Assembly: GCA_021738245.1 (NCBI GenBank)
Contig: JAIPCJ010000004.1
Span: 1 to 64,000 of the forward strand
From: Methylotenera sp.
GTDB taxonomy: Bacteria; Pseudomonadota; Gammaproteobacteria; Burkholderiales; Burkholderiaceae_C
DNA length: 64,000 nt
Direction: 5' to 3'
The notes beneath the pieces are model-generated. The model did not search any database and was not told the DNA's origin. It worked only from the letters and a program-made list of their open reading frames with translations. Of the stretch, positions 41,033 to 51,777 are shown piece by piece. Position 1 is the stretch's first letter; every line of letters starts with the position of its first letter. The position numbers were made by a program, and so were the translations under genes.

Positions 41033-41401
41033 CTACTCGAAGTCATCGCCCGCAGGCGCGTCGCCTTGCACCTGCCCCTTGAGTTTGTGGCTCGCGTGAA
41101 AGGTGACCACGTTGCGGGCCTTGATGGGGATGGATTCACCCGTGCGTGGATTGCGCCCTGGGCGGGGTGCCTTGCGGCGGATGTTGAAGTTGCCGAAGCC
41201 GGAAAGCTTCACGTCCTGGCCCTTGACGAGGCTGTCGTGCAGGATGTCGAAGAAGGCTTCGACCATGTCCTTGGATTCGCGCTTGTTGAGCCCGAGCTTG
41301 TCGAACAGCAGTTCGGCAAGCTCAGCTTTCGTCAGCGTGGGCGTCTCGAGGCTGCCGATGACCACGGCAGCGGCGTCCTTCTTGGTGTCATTCGCGTCCA
41401 T
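41033..41401 (-). CDS. ihfA: integration host factor alpha subunit
   Basis: [36 protein letters not shown]...[25 protein letters not shown]; next to pheT. Confidence 0.95.
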
Positions 41402-41412
41402 GAATCCTCCGG

Positions 41413-43842
41413 TCAGCCGCGCAGGCGGGCGCCCAGTTGTTGGCCGGTGGCCGCGACGATGGCGGTGACGACCGCATCGATGCGCTCATCCGTCAGGGTG
41501 GCCTCGTCATCGAGCAGTTCCAGCCGCACGGCCAGGCTGCGCTCATCGGCCTGCAGGTCCGTCGCGCTGCCTGCGGTCGGTTTGAAGACGTCGAACAATC
41601 GGGCCGAGCGCAGCAGCGGGCCGCCAGCCGTCGTGATGGCACTCATCAGCGCGTCGTGGCTGATGCCGTCCTTCACCACGAGCGCCAGATCGCGCTGCAC
41701 CGCTTGCTGGCGAGGCAGCGGTTGGCCGTGGGGCAGGGTGCGGCTCAGCGAGGCGTCCAGGTCAAGTTCGAACACGACGGGCGCACCGCCACTGATCTCA
41801 TACGACTGACGCCAGCGCGGATGCAGTTCGCCGATGACACCGACGGGCGCACCGTTGAGCAGGACCCGGGCGCTGCGCCCGGGGTGAAGCGCGGGATGCA
41901 CCGCAGCCTCGAAGCTCAGCGATTGCGGCGCGAACAGAGCCTCCAGGTCACCCTTGACGTCGAAGAAGTCGACGGCGCGGTCGCGCTGGCTCCATTGCTG
42001 CTGGTCAGCCGGGCCCCAGGCCAGGCCACCCAGGCGCAGCGGCTGGGCAATGCCAGCCACGGCCAGCGGGCCACTCGCCACCTCTGCAGCGCGCTTGAAG
42101 ACCCGGCCGAGTTCAAAGACCCGCACGCGCGTCGCGCGGCGCGCCTGGTTGTGGCGCAGCACCTGCAAAAGGCTGCCGATCAGGCTGGTGCGCATCACCG
42201 CCAACGGGGCCGCGATGGGGTTGAGCAGCTTGATGGGATTCGTCTCGCCGGCTAGGTCGCGTTCCCAGCGCTCTTCGACGAAGCTGAAATTGATCGTCTC
42301 GTAGTAATCGCGCGCCGCCACGGCGCGGCGCAGTGCATGCTGGCCCGAGCGGCTCTCGGTGCGCGTGCGGCCCACGATGGGCGCCAGCGGCGCTGTCGAG
42401 GGCAGGGTTGGGTAGCCCATCACCCGGATGACTTCCTCGATGAGGTCTTCTTCGATCAGCAGGTCGAATCGCCAGCTGGGCGGGGTCACCGTGATCACGC
42501 CGTCAGTGGCGGTGAAGGGCAGCCCCAGGCGGGTGAACACGCGCTCGCAGTCAGCTTGCGTGACCGGCATGCCAATGACCTTGGCGGCGCGGGCGACACG
42601 CAAGGCCACCGGTTGGCGTACGGGCAGGTTGGGCGACTGGTCGTCCATCGGGCCGACCTGGGTCTCGGGCGTGCCGCAGATGTCCAGGATGAGCTGGGTG
42701 ATGCGCTCGATGTGCTCGACGGTCTGGGCCGGATCGACGCCGCGCTCGAAGCGGTGGCCGGCGTCGGTGGAGAAGTTGTAGCGGCGCCCGCGGCCCATGA
42801 CGGCCTCGGGCCACCAGAAGGCGGCTTCGACGTAGACGTTGCGGGTGTCGTCGGACACGGCGGTGTGATCGCCGCCCATGATGCCGGCGAGAGACTCGAC
42901 TTCGCGCGCATCGGCGATGACGCCGACCTTCTCGTCGACCGAGATGGTGTTGCCGTTGAGCAGCTTGAGCTGTTCGCCCGGCTTGCCCCAGCGCACCACG
43001 AGCTCGCCGCTGATCTTGTCGAGGTCGAAGATGTGCGACGGGCGGCCGTACTCGAACATCACGTAGTTGGAGATGTCCACGAGCGCCGTGACCGAGCGCT
43101 GGCCGCAGCGCTCCAGGCGCTGCACCATCCAGGCCGGGGTTGCCGCCTTCGTGTCGATGCCCTGGATGATGCGGCCCGAGAAGCGGCCGCAGAGGTCGGT
43201 GGCTTCGATGCGGGCGGGCAGCTTGGCGTCGGTCGTGGGCTTGACGGGCGGGAACTCCGCCTTGAGCAGCGGCGCGCCCGTCAGCGCAGCGACTTCGCGG
43301 GCGATGCCGTAGACCGACAGGCAGTGGCCCAGGTTGGGCGTGAGCTTGAGCGTGAAGAGGGTGTCGTCCAGCGCGAGGTGCTTGCGGATGTCTTCGCCGA
43401 CCAGAGCGTCGGCGGTCAGCTCAAGCAGGCCGCCATGGTCCTCGCTCAATTTCAGCTCGCGGGCCGAGCACAGCATGCCGAAGCTCTCGACGCCACGCAG
43501 CTTGCCGACGCCGATCTTGAAGGGCTTGCCATCTTCGCCAGGGGGCAGTTCGGCGCCGACGGTTGCGAGCGGCACCTTGATGCCGGCGCGGGCGTTGGGG
43601 GCGCCGCAGACGATCTGAAGCGGCTCAGGGCCACCGGCGTTGACCTTGCAGACGCGCAGCTTGTCGGCGTTGGGGTGCTGCGTGGCTTCGAGGATCTCGG
43701 CCACCACGATGCCGTGGAAGGGCGGCGCGACAGGGCGCAGCTCTTCCACTTCCATGCCGGACATGGTGAGCAGTTCAGCCAGTTGGGCGGTGGACAGCGG
43801 CGGATTGCAGAACTCGCGCAGCCAGGACTCGGGGAATTGCAT
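41413..43842 (-). CDS. pheT: phenylalanyl-tRNA synthetase beta subunit
   Basis: [42 protein letters not shown]...; follows pheS. Confidence 0.97.
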
Positions 43843-43860: not shown

Positions 43861-44904
43861 TTACTTGAACTGGGCGAGGAAACGCAGATCGCCGTCGAAG
43901 AAGGCGCGCAGGTCATTGACGCCATAGCGCAGCATGGCCAGGCGATCGATGCCGGAGCCGAAGGCGAAGCCGATGTAGCGCTCGGGGTCGAGGCCCATGT
44001 TGCGGATGACCTGCGGATGCACCTGACCCGAGCCCGAAACCTCCAGCCAGCGCCCCTTGAGCGGGCCGCTGTCGAACATGATGTCGATCTCGGCACTGGG
44101 CTCGGTGAAAGGGAAGTAGCTGGGGCGGAAGCGCAGCTGCAGCTGGTCGGTCTCGAAGAAGGCGGTGATGAAGTTGAGATAGACCGCCTTCAGGTCCTTG
44201 AACGAGATGTTCTCGCCCACCCACAGGCCTTCGACCTGGTGGAACATGGGCGAGTGCGTGGCGTCGCTGTCCACGCGGTAGGTGCGGCCCGGGGCAATGA
44301 CGCGGATCTCCGGCATCGTGTCCTGACCGGCGTAGCGCTTGGCGTGGGCCTGTGCGTAGCGGATCTGCATCGGGCTGGTGTGCGGGCGCAGGTTGAGCCA
44401 GGCGCCGTTCTCGTCCTTCATGTCGACGTAGAACGTGTCCTGCATCGAGCGCGCGGGGTGGTTCTCGGGGTTGTTCAGGGCCGAGAAGCTGTACCAGTCG
44501 GTCTCGATCTCGGGGCCGTCGGCGACGTCGAAGCCCATCGACGAGAAGATGGCCTCGATGCGCTCCATGGCGCGGGTGATGGGGTGCAGCCCGCCGGTAC
44601 CGCGCTGGCGGCCGGGCAGGGTCACGTCCAGGGCTTCAGCCTTGAGCTGCTTCTCGAGCTCGGCGGCGGCCAGGGCGTCGCGGCGGGCGGTCAGCGCGGC
44701 CTCGATGGCCACCTTGCATTGGTTGATCTCGGCACCGCGGGTCTTTTTTTCCTCGATGCTCAAGGCGCCGAGGCCCTTCATCAACTCGGTCACGCGGCCC
44801 GTCTTGCCGATGTACTTGGCCTTGGCGTTTTCGAGTTCAGCGGGCGTCGGGGCGGCGGCAAAGTCAGCTTGGGCCGCCTGCAGCAAAGCGTCGAGATCAG
44901 ACAT
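43861..44904 (-). CDS. pheS: phenylalanyl-tRNA synthetase alpha subunit
   Basis: [53 protein letters not shown]. Confidence 0.97.
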
Positions 44905-44990: not shown

Positions 44991-45347
44991 TCAGGCGAGC
45001 GCGGCCTTCACCTTGGCGAAGATGCTGGCGAAACCAGCCGGGTCGTTGACGGCCAGATCAGCGAGGACCTTGCGGTCGATCTCGATCTGGGCCTTCTTCA
45101 GACCCGCCACGAACTTGCTGTAGGACAGGCCCAGGCCACGCGAGGCGGCGTTGATACGGGCAATCCAGAGCTGACGGAAGACGCGCTTCTTGGTGCGGCG
45201 GTCACGGTAGGCGTATTGGCCCGCCTTCATCACCGCCTGCTTGGCGATGCGGAAGACGTTCTTACGACGACCGCGGAAGCCCTTGGCCAGGGCCAGGACC
45301 TTCTTGTGACGGGCGCGAGCGGTAACACCACGTTTGACGCGAGGCAT
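44991..45347 (-). CDS. rplT: 50S ribosomal protein L20
   Basis: [51 protein letters not shown]. Confidence 0.98.
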
Positions 45348-45374
45348 GTGTTTCTCCTTTAGTCGTTGGTGGGA

Positions 45375-45578
45375 TTACAGACCGGCGAAAGGCAACATTT
45401 GAGCCATGTGGCCCATGTTGGTTTCGTGCACGTTCACAGCGCCGCGAAGCTGACGCTTGTTCTTCGTGGTCTTCTTGGTCAGGATGTGGCGCTTGAACGC
45501 CTGACCGCGCTTGACGGTGCCACCCGGACGAACGCGAAAACGCTTTTTCGCGCTGCTCTTGGTCTTCATCTTGGGCAT
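45375..45578 (-). CDS. rpmI: 50S ribosomal protein L35
   Basis: [46 protein letters not shown]. Confidence 0.98.
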
Positions 45579-45699
45579 GTGAATGCTCCTTTTAAGTGTG
45601 TCCCTGGGGCGGTGACGAAAGAGCCCGTCACGCTTGTTGGCCTCAGGAGACTTGTGAACTGGCCGGCGACCAAACCGACCAGTTGAACCTGCAAAGGTC

Positions 45700-46245
45700 T
45701 CAGCGCTTCTTGGGCGCCAGGACCATGATCATCTGCCGACCTTCGAGCTTCGGCATGTTCTCGACCACCGCCACATCGGCCAGTTCGTCGCGGATCCGCT
45801 CCAGGAGGCGCATGCCGATTTCCTGGTGGGTGATCTCGCGGCCCCGGTAGCGCAGCGTCACTTTGCCCTTGTCGCCGTCTTCGGCGATGAAGCGGCGCAG
45901 ATTGCGCATCTTGATCTGGTAGTCGCCTTCGTCCGTGCCCGGGCGGAATTTGACTTCCTTGATTTCGATGATCTTCTGCTTGGCCTTGGCTTCGGCGGCG
46001 CGCTTTTGCTCCTGGTACTTGAACTTGCCGTAGTCCATCAGCCGGCAGACCGGCGGATTGGCAGTGGCGGAGATCTCGACCAGATCCACATCCAGATCGC
46101 CCGCCATGCGCAGGGCTTCCTGGATGCTGACGATCCCGATGGGTTCGTTCTCGGGGCCGTTCAGGCGGACTTCGGGAGCCATGATTTCGCGGTTCAACCG
46201 GTGCTTGCGCTCCGGAATCGCACGACGGTCGGCAAACGTAGCGAT
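45700..46245 (-). CDS. infC: translation initiation factor IF-3, inferred non-canonical ATC start
   Basis: Frame extends 16 codons above the supplied ORF start (46197) to ATC at 46243-46245: [45 protein letters not shown] Shine-Dalgarno about 8 nt upstream. Confidence 0.88.
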
Positions 46246-46313
46246 GGTGTGGACCTTTCAACGGGCCCCAAGGCGAGGAGCCCAGACAAAACAAATCGCG
46301 CCCGGAGAGCTCG

Positions 46314-48221
46314 TCAGACCTTGTGGGTGATGTCTGCGGAGATCCTGTCGAGGAAGTCCTGCAGAGGCATCACGCCGAGATCCTGGTTGCCACGGGCGCG
46401 GACCGCAACGCTGCCATTCGCCTTTTCCTTGTCACCAACGACGAGGATGTACGGCAGCTTTTGCATGGAATGCTGACGGATTTTATAGGTGATCTTCTCG
46501 TTGCGCAAATCAGCCGAGGCCCTAAGCCCTTGTTTTTGCAGCGATTTCACAATTTCAGCCACGTAATCGGCCTGGGCGTCCGTGATATTGGCCACCACGA
46601 CCTGCGTTGGGGCCAGCCAGGTGGGCAGCGCGCCGGCGTGCTGCTCGATCAGGATGCCGATGAAGCGTTCCAGGCTGCCGACGATGGCGCGGTGCAGCAT
46701 CAGCGGGCGCTTGTGCTCGCCGTTCTCGTCGACGAAGTCGGCGTCCAGGCGTTCCGGCAGGTTGGGGTCGACCTGGATGGTGCCGCACTGCCATTCGCGG
46801 CCGAGCGCGTCTTTCAGGGTGTATTCGATCTTGGGGCCGTAGAACGCACCTTCGCCCGGCAGGTAGGTGAAGTCGCAGCCCGAGGCCTTCAGGCCCTCGG
46901 CGAGCGCGGCTTCGGCCTTGTCCCAGCTTTCTTCGGTGCCGATGCGCTTTTCGGGGCGCGTCGACAGCTTGTAGATGATGTCGGTGAAGCCGAAGTCCTT
47001 GTAGACCTTCTGCAGCAGCGTCGTGAAGGCCGTCACCTCACCCTGGATCTGGTCTTCGGTGCAGAAGATGTGGCCGTCATCCTGCGTGAAGCCGCGCACG
47101 CGCATGATGCCGTGCAGGCCGCCCGAGGGCTCGTTGCGGTGGCATTGACCGAATTCGCCGTAGCGCAGCGGCAGGTCGCGGTAGCTCTTCACGCCCTGCT
47201 TGAAGATCAGGATGTGGCCCGGGCAGTTCATCGGCTTGAGCGCGTAGTCGCGCTTCTCCGACTCGGTCACGAACATGTTCTCGCGGTACTTGTCCCAGTG
47301 GCCGGTCTTCTCCCACAGGCCCTTGTCCAGGATCTGCGGACCCTTGACCTCCAGGTAGCCGTTGTCGCGGTAGACCCGGCGCATGTACTGCTCCACCTCC
47401 TGCCACACCGTCCAGCCCTTGGGGTGCCAGAAGACGACGCCCGGGGCGTGCTCGTCGATGTGGAAGAGGTCGAGTTCCTTGCCGAGCTTTCGGTGGTCGC
47501 GCTTCTCGGCTTCTTCCAGCAGCGTCAGGTACTTCTGCAGGTCGTCCTTGCTGGCCCAGGCCGTGCCGTAGACGCGCTGCAGCATCTCGTTGCGGTGGTC
47601 GCCGCGCCAGTAGGCGCCGGCCACCTTCATGAGCTTGAAGTGTTTGAGCTTGCCGGTGGATGGCACGTGGGGGCCGCGGCAGAGGTCTTCGAACTTGCCT
47701 TCGGCGTAAAGCGACACGTCTTCGCCGGCCGGGATGCTGCCGATGATCTCGGCCTTGTAGTGCTCGCCCAGGGCCTTGAAGTGGGCCACGGCTTCGTCAC
47801 GCGGCAGCACGCGGCGCACGACCTTTTCGTCCTTCTTGGCGAGCTCGGTCATCTTGGACTCGATGGCGGCCAAGTCTTCGGGCGTGAAGGGGCGCTTGTA
47901 GGAGAAGTCGTAATAGAAGCCGTTGTCAATGACCGGGCCGATGGTGACCTGGGCGTCGGGGTAGAGCTCCTTGACGGCGTAGGCCAGCAGGTGAGCGGTC
48001 GAGTGGCGGATCATGTCCAGGCCGTCGGCATCCTTGTCGGTGACGATGGCCAGGCTGGCGTCCTTGTCGATGACGTGGCTGAGATCGACGAGCTTGCCGT
48101 CCACCTTGCCACCCAGCGCCGCCTTGGCCAGGCCTGCACCGATGCTGGCGGCGACGTCGCCGACCGTCAGCGGGGCGGGGTACTCACGGCGCGAGCCGTC
48201 GGGGAGTTGAATCGAGATCAT
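46314..48221 (-). CDS. thrS: threonyl-tRNA synthetase
   Basis: [47 protein letters not shown] at 48221. Confidence 0.97.
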
Positions 48222-48246
48222 GGGTGCTCCGTTCGTGGGGCAGAAA

Positions 48247-48279
48247 ACAAAAAGCGCGGCCACTTGCCGCGCTTTGTTC
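48247..48279 (-). terminator. thrS leader attenuator hairpin
   Basis: Minus strand AAAGCGCGGC-AAGTG-GCCGCGCTTT followed by TTGTTTT, between the leader ORF and the thrS ATG. Confidence 0.85.
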
Positions 48280-48313
48280 TTGCCCGAAGGCAGGCGTGAC
48301 GAGCCGCGGCCGA

Positions 48314-48352
48314 CTAGGTACCGGTGAAGGTGGTCGTAGTTCGCGGTGTCAT
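48314..48352 (-). CDS. threonine-rich leader peptide [12 protein letters not shown] upstream of thrS
   Basis: ATG ACA CCG CGA ACT ACG ACC ACC TTC ACC GGT ACC TAG on the minus strand; 7 of 12 codons are Thr; AAAGG upstream. Confidence 0.8.
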
Positions 48353-48397
48353 AACCAGGGTGCCTTTCTCGCTCTTGTGAGGGGGGGAGCGTCGATT

Positions 48398-49492
48398 CTA
48401 AAGGCTCAGCGCCTGAAGGCTGTCACGCGAAGCGAGCTCGGCGAAATCTTCCGCCAGGCGCTGGCTCTCGGCGACGGCGATGCGCCAGCGGCGGCGGCGC
48501 TCCTCGGCATCGAGGTGGATGAAGTCATTGCGGTCGGGCAGCTTGCCTCCCGGCAGTGCGGCAATCCATTCGGGCGACGGGCATAGCAGCACCACGTTGT
48601 CGAGGAAGGCGGTCGCGCGGTGGCGGTGCTTGAGCGCCTTGTCGAGCCAGCCGGGCACCACCTGGCGCTGGAAATGCGGGTACAGCACCAACGGCGCGCC
48701 GCCGGCCTGCAGGGCGCGGTAGTCCAGGTGCAGGTGGTAGTCGGTGATGCCGCCGTCCCAATACGCGCCGCGTGGCGCGCCGGGGAGGTCGTGCTGGGCC
48801 TGAAGCCAGAAGGGGATGGAGCAGCTCGCCAGCAGCGCGCCGCGCAGGTTGGCGCGGGACAGGTGCACCTCGCGGCTGGTGAAGTCGTTCAGCGTCAGCG
48901 GCAGGCGGTCGCGCGGGTCCGAGAAGATCACCCGCTCCAGGAAGCGCCCGAGCAGTGGACGCGAGACGGCATTGGCCGCGAACGCGCCCAGGTAGCCCAG
49001 CGGCGTGCGCAGCCGGCCCTCGCGCGCGAGCAGGCCCAGCCCCTTGTGCTGGCCCCGCGAGGTGACGATGTGCAGCCGCCAGCGTGGGTGCGCCAGCACC
49101 TCGGCCTCGCGGCCCTCGAAGATCTCCGCCAGGATCTCGCCGAAGCGCCGGCTCACGCCTTCCGGGCGCGGGCGCTTCTCGCCCGGCAGCACGTCGTATT
49201 CCTGGGTGACGTAGGCCTCAGCCATCACCTCGAAGGCATGTGCCACGCCGCGATGCGCCAGAGCGGCGGTGGCCATGCGCCAGGCGCCGATGCTGGCGCC
49301 GACCAGATGCACCTTGTGCGAGCTGCGCGCCAGCCAGTCGCCGAACAGATGCCGATCCAGTCCGTTCAGCGCCAGACCTTTCGGCCCGCCCGCCGCGGCC
49401 GGAATGAGCCCGATGTCCTCGGCGCGCAGGCCGCGCCCAGCCAGCCGCGCGCGGGCGGCCGGTCCGGCGTAGACCTGCATCGCCCGCGTCAT
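48398..49492 (-). CDS. patatin-like phospholipase family protein
   Basis: [16 protein letters not shown] (oxyanion-type), [11 protein letters not shown] (GxSxG-like), [15 protein letters not shown] (DGG/DGA-like); ATGA overlap with upstream gene. Confidence 0.85.
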
Positions 49493-51777
49493 CAGAACTT
49501 GTGCTCCCAGTTCACCGACCACCAGGCCACGGGCTTGCGTTCGCTCAGGTTGTAGTCGCCATTGATGATGGCCACGCGCGTGCCTTGCTTGGGCTGGAAC
49601 AGGCCGTTCACCGAGAAGCGCACGCCGTCCTGCTTGCTGAGCTGCGCCGCGACGAAGGCGTCAAGCGAGCGGGCGGGCAGGGTTTCCTGGCTCTGCAGCG
49701 CGGTCTGCTGCACATTGAACTTCGGCGCGATCTGGGCGCTGAAGCCCATGTTCACGGGCAGGCTCTTCAGGCGATAGTCGGCGCCGAAGTTGAACTGCCA
49801 GGGCTGCTGGCCCTCCAGGCGGTTGTCCGGGCCGGGGATATCAGCCACGCGCGAGCGGTAGAGGTTCAGCGAGGCCCGCATGCTGAGTGCGGTGGCCGGC
49901 TCGAACAGGCTCGGGAAGAGCTCCGACGCGCGGCCCTTGATCTCGAACTCCAGGCCTTCGGTCGTGGCCTTGCTCAGGTTGATGGGCTTGGCCACCCAGC
50001 GCGGCACGCTGGCCCAGCTGACGTTTTGCTCCAGCACCAGCGAGTTGCGCACCAGGCCCGTGATGCGGCGGTGGAACACGCCTACCGAAATCAGGCCGCC
50101 GGCCGGGAGGTAGTTCTCCCAGGCGATGTCCAGGCCGGTGGCCAGCTCGGGCTTGAGGTCGGGGTTGCCGATGCGGTCGGGCGCGGTTTGGGTGTTGGTG
50201 CGCGCGTTGGCGCCGGTGGCCGGGTAGTCGGTGTTGATGGTCGGGCGCGCGATCAGTTGCTGCACGTCAGCCGCCTTGTAGGTGCGGGTGAGGCTGGCAC
50301 GGATGAGGTCGCGGGCCTTCGGGTCGGGCTTGAAGTTCAGGTGCAGCAGCGGCGTGGTGACCTTGCTGGTGCTGTTGAACTCGCTGCCGACGCCGTTGCT
50401 GACCGTCTTGATCTGCTCATGGCGCACGCCGAAGTAGGCCGACCACTGCTTGTTGATCTCCCACTCGTCCTGCACATAGGCGGCGGTGCGGGTGATGGTG
50501 GCGTCGAAAGGCTGGCCTTCGATGCCGGGCAGCAGATCCACGCCGTTCTCGACCGTGCGGCGGGTTTCGTCACGGGTGCGGCGCTCGATCTCGGCGCCGG
50601 TGGTCACCGTGTGGGCCTCGCCGGCGTACTGGCTGTACTTGCCCGACAGCGTCGCATTGCGGTTGCTGTTGTCGCCCGTGGTGGTGCGCGTCACGGTCTG
50701 CACACCGTTCTTGTCGCGGCCCAGGAAGTCGAACTTGAAGTCCGCACCGCCGCGGCCTGCGCCGGCGCGCAGCTCGACGCGGCGGTCTTCGCCGAAGCGG
50801 TTGTTGTATTGCAGGTTGACGCGCTGGGCCGAGAAGGTGCCGCGGTTGTGCGTCTCGTCGAGCACGCTTTGCGGCAGCACGCTGCTGGCGTTGGAGGCCA
50901 GCACCTCGGTGGTGTTGTTGCCGTCGTTGAAGAAGCGGTTGGTGATGAAGAAGCCCTGCAGCGAGAGGGTCTCGTCATCGCCCAGCTTCCAGTTCAGCCG
51001 CGGTGACACGTTCACGCCGCGGCCGTGCGAGCGGTCGGCGCCTGAGCTGCTCAGTCGCGTGGCACCGGTGTCGCGCAGCCGCTCGCCGTCGGTCTCGTTG
51101 CGGTTGTCCCACTGGAAAACGTTGATCGGCAGCACGAAGCCCAGGCCGCCCACCGTGCGGTTGCCGTAGGTGAAGCCGCCGTTCACGATGGGCTTCTCGT
51201 TGGCATAGGCCACGCCGATGCGCAGGTCCTTCTGCACGATGCGCGGCGCATCCTTCAGGATGATGTTGAGCGTGCCGGCGATGGCCTGGGCGGTCTGGTC
51301 GGCCGTGGGCGCCTTGCTCACTTCCAGGCGTTCGACCTGGGCGGGGTTGAGGTTGTCCAGACTGAAGCCCGGAGGCGCCGGCTCGCCGTTGACCAGGATC
51401 TGTGTGTAAGCGCCACCCAGGCCGCGCATGCGCAGCTGGCCGCCCGAGACGTTGATGCCCGGCAGGCGCTTGAGCACGTCGCTCAGCTGGGTGTCGCCAT
51501 ACTTGTCGAGCTCTTCGCGGCCGTAGAGCTGCTTGGCCACCGGCTCGCGGCGGCGCAGGTCGGTGTCGGTCTGCTGGCGGGTGACCGACACGCGCTCCAG
51601 CTGGTTGGTGTTGGGCGTGGGCGTGGCGGTCGTCGTGGCGCGATCGACCTCCTGCTGGGCCAGCACGAGTGCCGGGCAGAGCAGCAGGAGCGAGGCGAGG
51701 GCGGGCGTTTTCAAGCAGGTCTCCGAGGGTGTCGAGGCGGCGCGCACGTTAGCGGCAGCGTTGTCGGGCGGCAGCAT
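49492..51777 (-). CDS. TonB-dependent receptor
   Basis: Plug domain YGREELDKYGDTQLSDVLKRLPGINVSGGQLRMRGLGGAYTQILVNGEPAP; C-terminal beta barrel ending in WWSVNWEHKF; start uncertain. Confidence 0.92.
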   Translation of the reverse strand: MLPPDNAAANVRAASTPSETCLKTPALASLLLLCPALVLAQQEVDRATTTATPTPNTNQLERVSVTRQQTDTDLRRREPVAKQLYGREELDKYGDTQLSDVLKRLPGINVSGGQLRMRGLGGAYTQILVNGEPAPPGFSLDNLNPAQVERLEVSKAPTADQTAQAIAGTLNIILKDAPRIVQKDLRIGVAYANEKPIVNGGFTYGNRTVGGLGFVLPINVFQWDNRNETDGERLRDTGATRLSSSGADRSHGRGVNVSPRLNWKLGDDETLSLQGFFITNRFFNDGNNTTEVLASNASSVLPQSVLDETHNRGTFSAQRVNLQYNNRFGEDRRVELRAGAGRGGADFKFDFLGRDKNGVQTVTRTTTGDNSNRNATLSGKYSQYAGEAHTVTTGAEIERRTRDETRRTVENGVDLLPGIEGQPFDATITRTAAYVQDEWEINKQWSAYFGVRHEQIKTVSNGVGSEFNSTSKVTTPLLHLNFKPDPKARDLIRASLTRTYKAADVQQLIARPTINTDYPATGANARTNTQTAPDRIGNPDLKPELATGLDIAWENYLPAGGLISVGVFHRRITGLVRNSLVLEQNVSWASVPRWVAKPINLSKATTEGLEFEIKGRASELFPSLFEPATALSMRASLNLYRSRVADIPGPDNRLEGQQPWQFNFGADYRLKSLPVNMGFSAQIAPKFNVQQTALQSQETLPARSLDAFVAAQLSKQDGVRFSVNGLFQPKQGTRVAIINGDYNLSERKPVAWWSVNWEHKF

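Follow-up and report, generated by a model that had tools for sequence, protein, structure and literature searches.

The thrS gene of Methylotenera sp. is very probably preceded by a ribosome-mediated transcription attenuator, which would tie the thrS-led operon to the supply of charged tRNA-Thr. The window, meaning the whole stretch of DNA analysed here, comprises 64,000 nt of contig JAIPCJ010000004.1, and all attenuator parts as well as the operon lie on its minus strand. The locus displays every sequence-testable feature of a classical ribosome-mediated attenuator: a threonine-rich, translated-looking ORF between a predicted promoter and thrS, a terminator between this ORF and thrS, mutually exclusive 2:3 and 3:4 pairings together with a weaker 1:2 pairing, and the geometry of ribosome coverage. 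The features are the following:

48395..48400, minus: putative -10-like box TAGAAT of the leader promoter, assigned from the enrichment of -10 elements across leaders
48363..48370, minus: probable Shine-Dalgarno sequence of the leader ORF, purine-rich, GAGAAAGG (conserved AAGAGCGAGAAAGGC block)
48314..48352, minus: leader ORF, 12 codons and stop (sequence read; core conservation; Thr enrichment)
48337..48346, minus: strand 1, CCGCGAACTA, leader codons 3-6, pairs with strand 2
48304..48316, minus: strand 2, TAGTCGGCCGCGG, leader stop codon and following bases (pairing statistics against shuffles)
48310-48305, minus: antiterminator stretch GCCGCG within strand 2, complementary to CGCGGC of strand 3
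48282..48295, minus: small hairpin GCCUG-CCUU-CGGGC between strands 2 and 3 (RNA folding)
48266..48275, minus: strand 3, terminator 5' arm AAAGCGCGGC, of which CGCGGC (48271-48266) pairs with strand 2
48251..48260, minus: strand 4, terminator 3' arm GCCGCGCTTT (terminator scan; helix covariation)
48250-48244, minus: U tract after strand 4
46314..48221, minus: thrS, ATG at 48221, proposed first gene under control (TIGR00418, 734 bits)
45700..46197 as listed, minus: infC, true start probably upstream (TIGR00168)
45375..45578, minus: rpmI (TIGR00001)
44991..45347, minus: rplT (TIGR01032)
43861..44904, minus: pheS (TIGR00468)
41413..43842, minus: pheT (TIGR00472)
41033..41401, minus: ihfA (NF001401/TIGR00987)

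A direct read of the leader ORF gives ATG ACA CCG CGA ACT ACG ACC ACC TTC ACC GGT ACC TAG, in which 7 of the 12 codons are threonine codons (2, 5, 6, 7, 8, 10 and 12), as an earlier sequence-only reading of this DNA had noticed. The upstream neighbour is a patatin-like gene ending at 48398, and the -10 box of the leader overlaps that end. Behind the leader, GGCCGCGG starts 2 nt past the stop codon (TAG-TC-GGCCGCGG). The same reading had paired this segment with the 5' arm of a terminator ahead of the thrS ATG, and both elements are found in place. The intrinsic terminator AAAGCGCGGC-AAGTG-GCCGCGCTTT-TTGTTTT (48275-48251) has a 10-bp stem followed by the U tract, is the sole minus-strand terminator detected in 45000-49700 and lies 29 nt from thrS. 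The gene order thrS-infC-rpmI-rplT-pheST-ihfA, likewise proposed, is confirmed by NCBIfam matches.

Three pairings exclude one another: 1:2 between leader codons 3-6 and the post-stop segment, 2:3 between the post-stop segment and the terminator 5' arm, and 3:4, the terminator itself. In the proposed mechanism, the transcript would begin about 40 nt ahead of the leader ORF. As long as Thr-tRNA is plentiful, the ribosome would reach the stop codon and cover strand 2, the terminator 3:4 would form and RNA polymerase would stop about 25-30 nt before thrS. With scarce Thr-tRNA, the ribosome would stall at ACA (codon 2) or at ACT-ACG-ACC-ACC (codons 5-8), covering strand 1 and not strand 2. Pairing 2:3 would then form first and block the terminator, and thrS, presumably together with infC-rpmI-rplT-pheST-ihfA, would be transcribed. 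If the leader is not translated, 1:2 could form and the terminator would be free.

The arrangement of leader and terminator at thrS is not a product of chance. The motif of Shine-Dalgarno sequence and leader has a single match in the window and none in 100 shuffles. The leader core is the 18-mer GGTTATGACACCGCGAAC, present as one copy in the whole own genome; no further leader copies, e.g., to regulate other threonine genes, were found elsewhere in this genome. Within the family, the 18-mer (one or no mismatch) is kept once per genome in 311 of 400 genomes, covering 99 of 115 genera. Where the listed positions are comparable with thrS coordinates, it precedes the thrS profile match by about 340-420 nt, which is the leader position. 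The 18-mer is absent from about 22% of the sampled family genomes (89/400), and many of those lacking it are small (2.3-3.5 Mb). Named genomes with the leader include Roseateles, Pelomonas, Rubrivivax, Hydrogenophaga, Polaromonas, Ramlibacter, Burkholderia, Paraburkholderia, Cupriavidus, Janthinobacterium, Massilia and others. In five loci of relatives (L010, L017, L022, L086, L092), the leader ORF is absent and the -10 box is kept together with a GCGCGGC-type terminator-like hairpin, which is located about 10-30 nt past the -10 and directly before thrS, being either a remnant or a different control.

Other families of the Burkholderiales have leaders of different sequence that share an Arg-Thr core and are likewise followed by a terminator ahead of thrS, e.g., MAVRTTTTHP, MQLNRTTTTS, MTTRTTTAG, MFRTCTTTWC, MDFRTTTSAAR, MTLRTCTKH and MQRTSTKTITYLG. 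By inspection, such a leader is present in about 16 of 50 sampled families, roughly a third, and these leaders mostly sit between a tRNA-Val(GAC) gene and the terminator upstream of thrS. No threonine leader was found in other orders of the class (30 genomes), and in the phylum sample none was found outside the window's own family.

Threonine itself appears to be under selection. Residues 6-9, chosen as lying outside the search pattern, are threonine in 43% (160/372) of the positions in 93 distinct MTPRT leaders vs. 5.2% in the window genes. At codon 6, threonine occurs in 70 of 99 leaders and is written as ACG (39), ACT (11), ACC (10) and ACA (10); since all four codons are used, selection seems to act on the amino acid. 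All four threonine codons are present in 46 of 137 leaders. The non-MTPRT leaders, a set of 21 picked by eye, contain 25% threonine. Furthermore, a mechanical test, which compared threonine clusters in ATG-started ORFs before a terminator with dinucleotide shuffles (p < 0.05), was passed by 48/61 family loci, 57/69 named loci and 11/44 loci of other families, one of these (L203) being a reading of a tRNA gene, and by none of the 14 terminator-bearing loci from other orders of the class. The cluster test and the enrichment at residues 6-9 thereby establish the conservation of threonine codons in relatives, the lack of which the sequence-only reading had named as evidence against its proposal.

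The start of the leader adds a second layer, which that reading had missed along with strand 1 (CCGCGAACTA) and the conservation at nucleotide level, while the mechanism it had drawn is supported. Codon 4 is CGA in 94 of 99 leaders and codon 5 is ACT in 84 of 99; codon 2 is fixed by the search pattern, which leaves the third position open in codons 3, 4 and 5. In the window genes, ACT accounts for 0.5% and ACA for 2.8% of the threonine codons, and CGA for 2.8% of the arginine codons. The near-invariant start (48352-48337) uses the rarest threonine and arginine codons of the genome, and the nucleotide conservation of ATGACACCGCGAAC exceeds the obvious need of peptide plus pairing. These rare first codons suggest an added constraint at nucleotide level, namely strand-1 pairing, rare-codon sensitivity or something else. 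It is conceivable, although unlikely, that the leader senses general slow decoding at ACA, CGA and ACT and not threonine specifically, so that slow decoding anywhere in codons 2-6 would mask strand 1 and lead to antitermination. Such a sensor would suit the preference for CGA and ACT, an ACA codon 2 lying within the widely kept 18-mer, and leaders that hold only two threonine codons (MTPRTSNKGFC, MTPRTQEFFSVAP). However, codons 6-9 keep threonine by varying codons, with no other residue comparably enriched there, and the non-MTPRT leaders are threonine-rich as well, which argues against such a sensor.

A -10-like element lies upstream of 73 of 108 distinct leaders, where 8.3 are expected by shuffling, typically 48-60 nt before the leader ATG (about 49 nt in the window). 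Matches about 90 nt away have to be discounted since they lie inside tRNA genes. A sigma-70 scan revealed no full two-hexamer promoter, and therefore only the -10 is claimed. A transcription start downstream of the leader ORF, the other finding that the sequence-only reading had set against its proposal, is not indicated by these predicted elements. It is very improbable that the hairpin merely terminates the upstream gene or a tRNA-Val unit and that thrS is served by its own downstream promoter with no leader regulation. Some Burkholderiales families (L115, L118), in which tRNA-Val is followed immediately by the terminator and then by thrS with no room for a leader, would conform to this. On the contrary, no tRNA-Val gene lies upstream of thrS in the window, the -10 is positioned between the upstream gene and the leader, the gap from terminator to thrS is only 29 nt and the threonine leader is conserved.

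Against shuffled strand 2, the best duplexes of 101 nonredundant leaders have a mean z of -0.56 (s.e. 0.10) for 1:2 and of -1.04 (s.e. 0.11) for 2:3, values which overstate independence since these leaders are still phylogenetically related. Collectively, the pairings exceed the dinucleotide-shuffled controls. In 94% of the leaders, 1:2 and 2:3 use overlapping parts of strand 2. The 1:2 pairing is statistically weak, reaching p < 0.05 in only 10% of single sequences; its helices are mostly kept (71-81% of cells paired in alignment A1) and cannot covary, since strand 1 is nearly invariant. The 2:3 complementarity persists across clade-specific terminators, with CCTCGA in Burkholderia, GGCTAGTC in Massilia and CGCGGC in Roseateles. 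The terminator helix is 92% paired and shows 4 covarying pairs in 40 sequences.

Counting from the first base of the P-site codon, the leading edge of the ribosome is placed at 16 nt, as known from toeprints. When codon 5 or 6 occupies the A site, the modelled ribosome extends over strand 1, and strand 2 stays accessible. At the stop codon of the window leader, it covers all of strand 2, so that the masking of the antiterminator strand by a terminating ribosome, as put forward before, is reproduced in the model. Across leaders, the median distance between the first base of the stop codon and the start of strand 2 is 4 nt, and a ribosome at the stop covers at least half of this strand in 76%. 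In snapshot folds computed before strand 4 exists, the 2:3 helix is present when the ribosome is stalled and absent when it is at the stop in L001, L036, L041 and L063; in L026 and L066 the two states are less cleanly separated. Once the RNA is complete, every case shown folds most stably into the terminator, which fits a kinetic switch. Comamonadaceae-type leaders (e.g., L013, L026, L226, L246) contain a hairpin enclosing the stop codon, nested inside 1:2. It is kept by compensating changes and was clade-specific when checked in other leaders; a formal alignment of it was not used since the loop register shifts.

The proposed attenuator resembles the enteric thr, trp, his and leu attenuators in its short ORF rich in the regulated amino acid, the overlapping 1:2/2:3/3:4 pairings, the intrinsic terminator before the structural gene and the ribosome position as signal. 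In contrast to the enteric thr attenuator, it precedes an aminoacyl-tRNA synthetase/translation operon and not threonine biosynthesis, and its leader core is conserved at nucleotide level over a family, unlike those of enteric attenuators. The Rfam model of the thrABC leader (RF00506, Thr_leader) scored 20.9 bits (E = 0.087), short of its gathering score of 55, and the sequence is unrelated. The pheST attenuator of gammaproteobacteria (pheM leader) likewise controls a synthetase gene by leader-peptide attenuation, and trpS and leuS attenuators have been predicted in Streptomyces (PMC1262725); these differ from the thrS one in synthetase, amino acid, lineage and sequence. The thrS T-box of Firmicutes is also a transcription antitermination device before thrS responding to uncharged tRNA-Thr; however, there the tRNA binds the RNA directly and no ribosome is needed. 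A T-box, riboswitch or known leader was considered and gave no Rfam match at gathering or permissive thresholds. No prior description of this thrS attenuator was found in open-access text. A supplement listing 82 short 5'UTR transcripts of Burkholderia cenocepacia might include thrS (Sass et al., 2017; PMC5688073).

In E. coli, thrS is controlled by a translational operator, a mimic of the tRNA-Thr anticodon arm bound by ThrRS (PMC3858243). It likewise exerts feedback on the same gene heading the same operon; however, it acts on translation initiation via ThrRS and needs no leader ORF or terminator. Just before E. coli thrS lies GTGATC-TTTCGTGTG-GGTCACCACTG, which in our reading is part of the hairpin-2 ThrRS operator. 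Of 30 genomes from other orders of the class, 10 contain the E. coli-like motif (CGU loop, GGTCACCACTG), with 0.07 expected, and a pattern search retrieved it from none of 220 Burkholderiales loci including the window, in line with the contrast to E. coli drawn by the sequence-only reading. In other orders (L145-L173), an operator hairpin of this kind, AAGTGGCC-NCTCGTATN-GGTCACCACTG, is conserved within the last 60 nt before thrS. That ThrRS binds the leader RNA as such an operator, the ORF being incidental, has the E. coli precedent and the unusual invariance of the 18-mer in its favour and is nevertheless hardly credible, given the distribution of the motif and the fact that an operator leaves both the threonine conservation at amino acid level and the terminator unexplained.

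Since the operator is present in other gammaproteobacterial orders and was not found in Burkholderiales, the control of thrS seems to have been switched. Many Burkholderiales families have a tRNA-Val(GAC) gene as the direct upstream neighbour of thrS (L041, L050, L063, L066, L089, L097, L113, L133, L142, L178, L197, L205 and L213), and so do other orders (L145, L165 and L170). The attenuator terminator may descend from a tRNA terminator. A fuller scenario of exaptation is offered tentatively and is somewhat less probable than not: upstream of thrS, a threonine-rich ORF came to lie between the tRNA-Val(GAC) gene and its terminator, so that termination became regulated and the ThrRS operator, which sister orders retain, was displaced; the family of the window subsequently lost the tRNA and gained a private promoter. 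As part of this scenario, the invariant 18-mer may also hint that the terminated leader RNA or the peptide acts in trans.

In E. coli, thrS is a textbook example of autoregulation by ThrRS, and it is the first gene of an operon with essential translation functions (IF3, L35, L20, PheRS). If true, the order-wide replacement of the operator by an attenuator would mean that one locus has changed from one regulatory mechanism to another. The attenuator, if real, would provide a natural threonine sensor for Burkholderiales and would account for a small ORF that is unannotated and occurs in most genomes of a large family. Within the operon, infC has non-canonical start candidates upstream of the listed TTG (46245-46216, minus strand), either AUC at 46245-46243 with an AAGG Shine-Dalgarno sequence or AUU at 46218-46216, which recalls the AUU start of E. 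coli infC.
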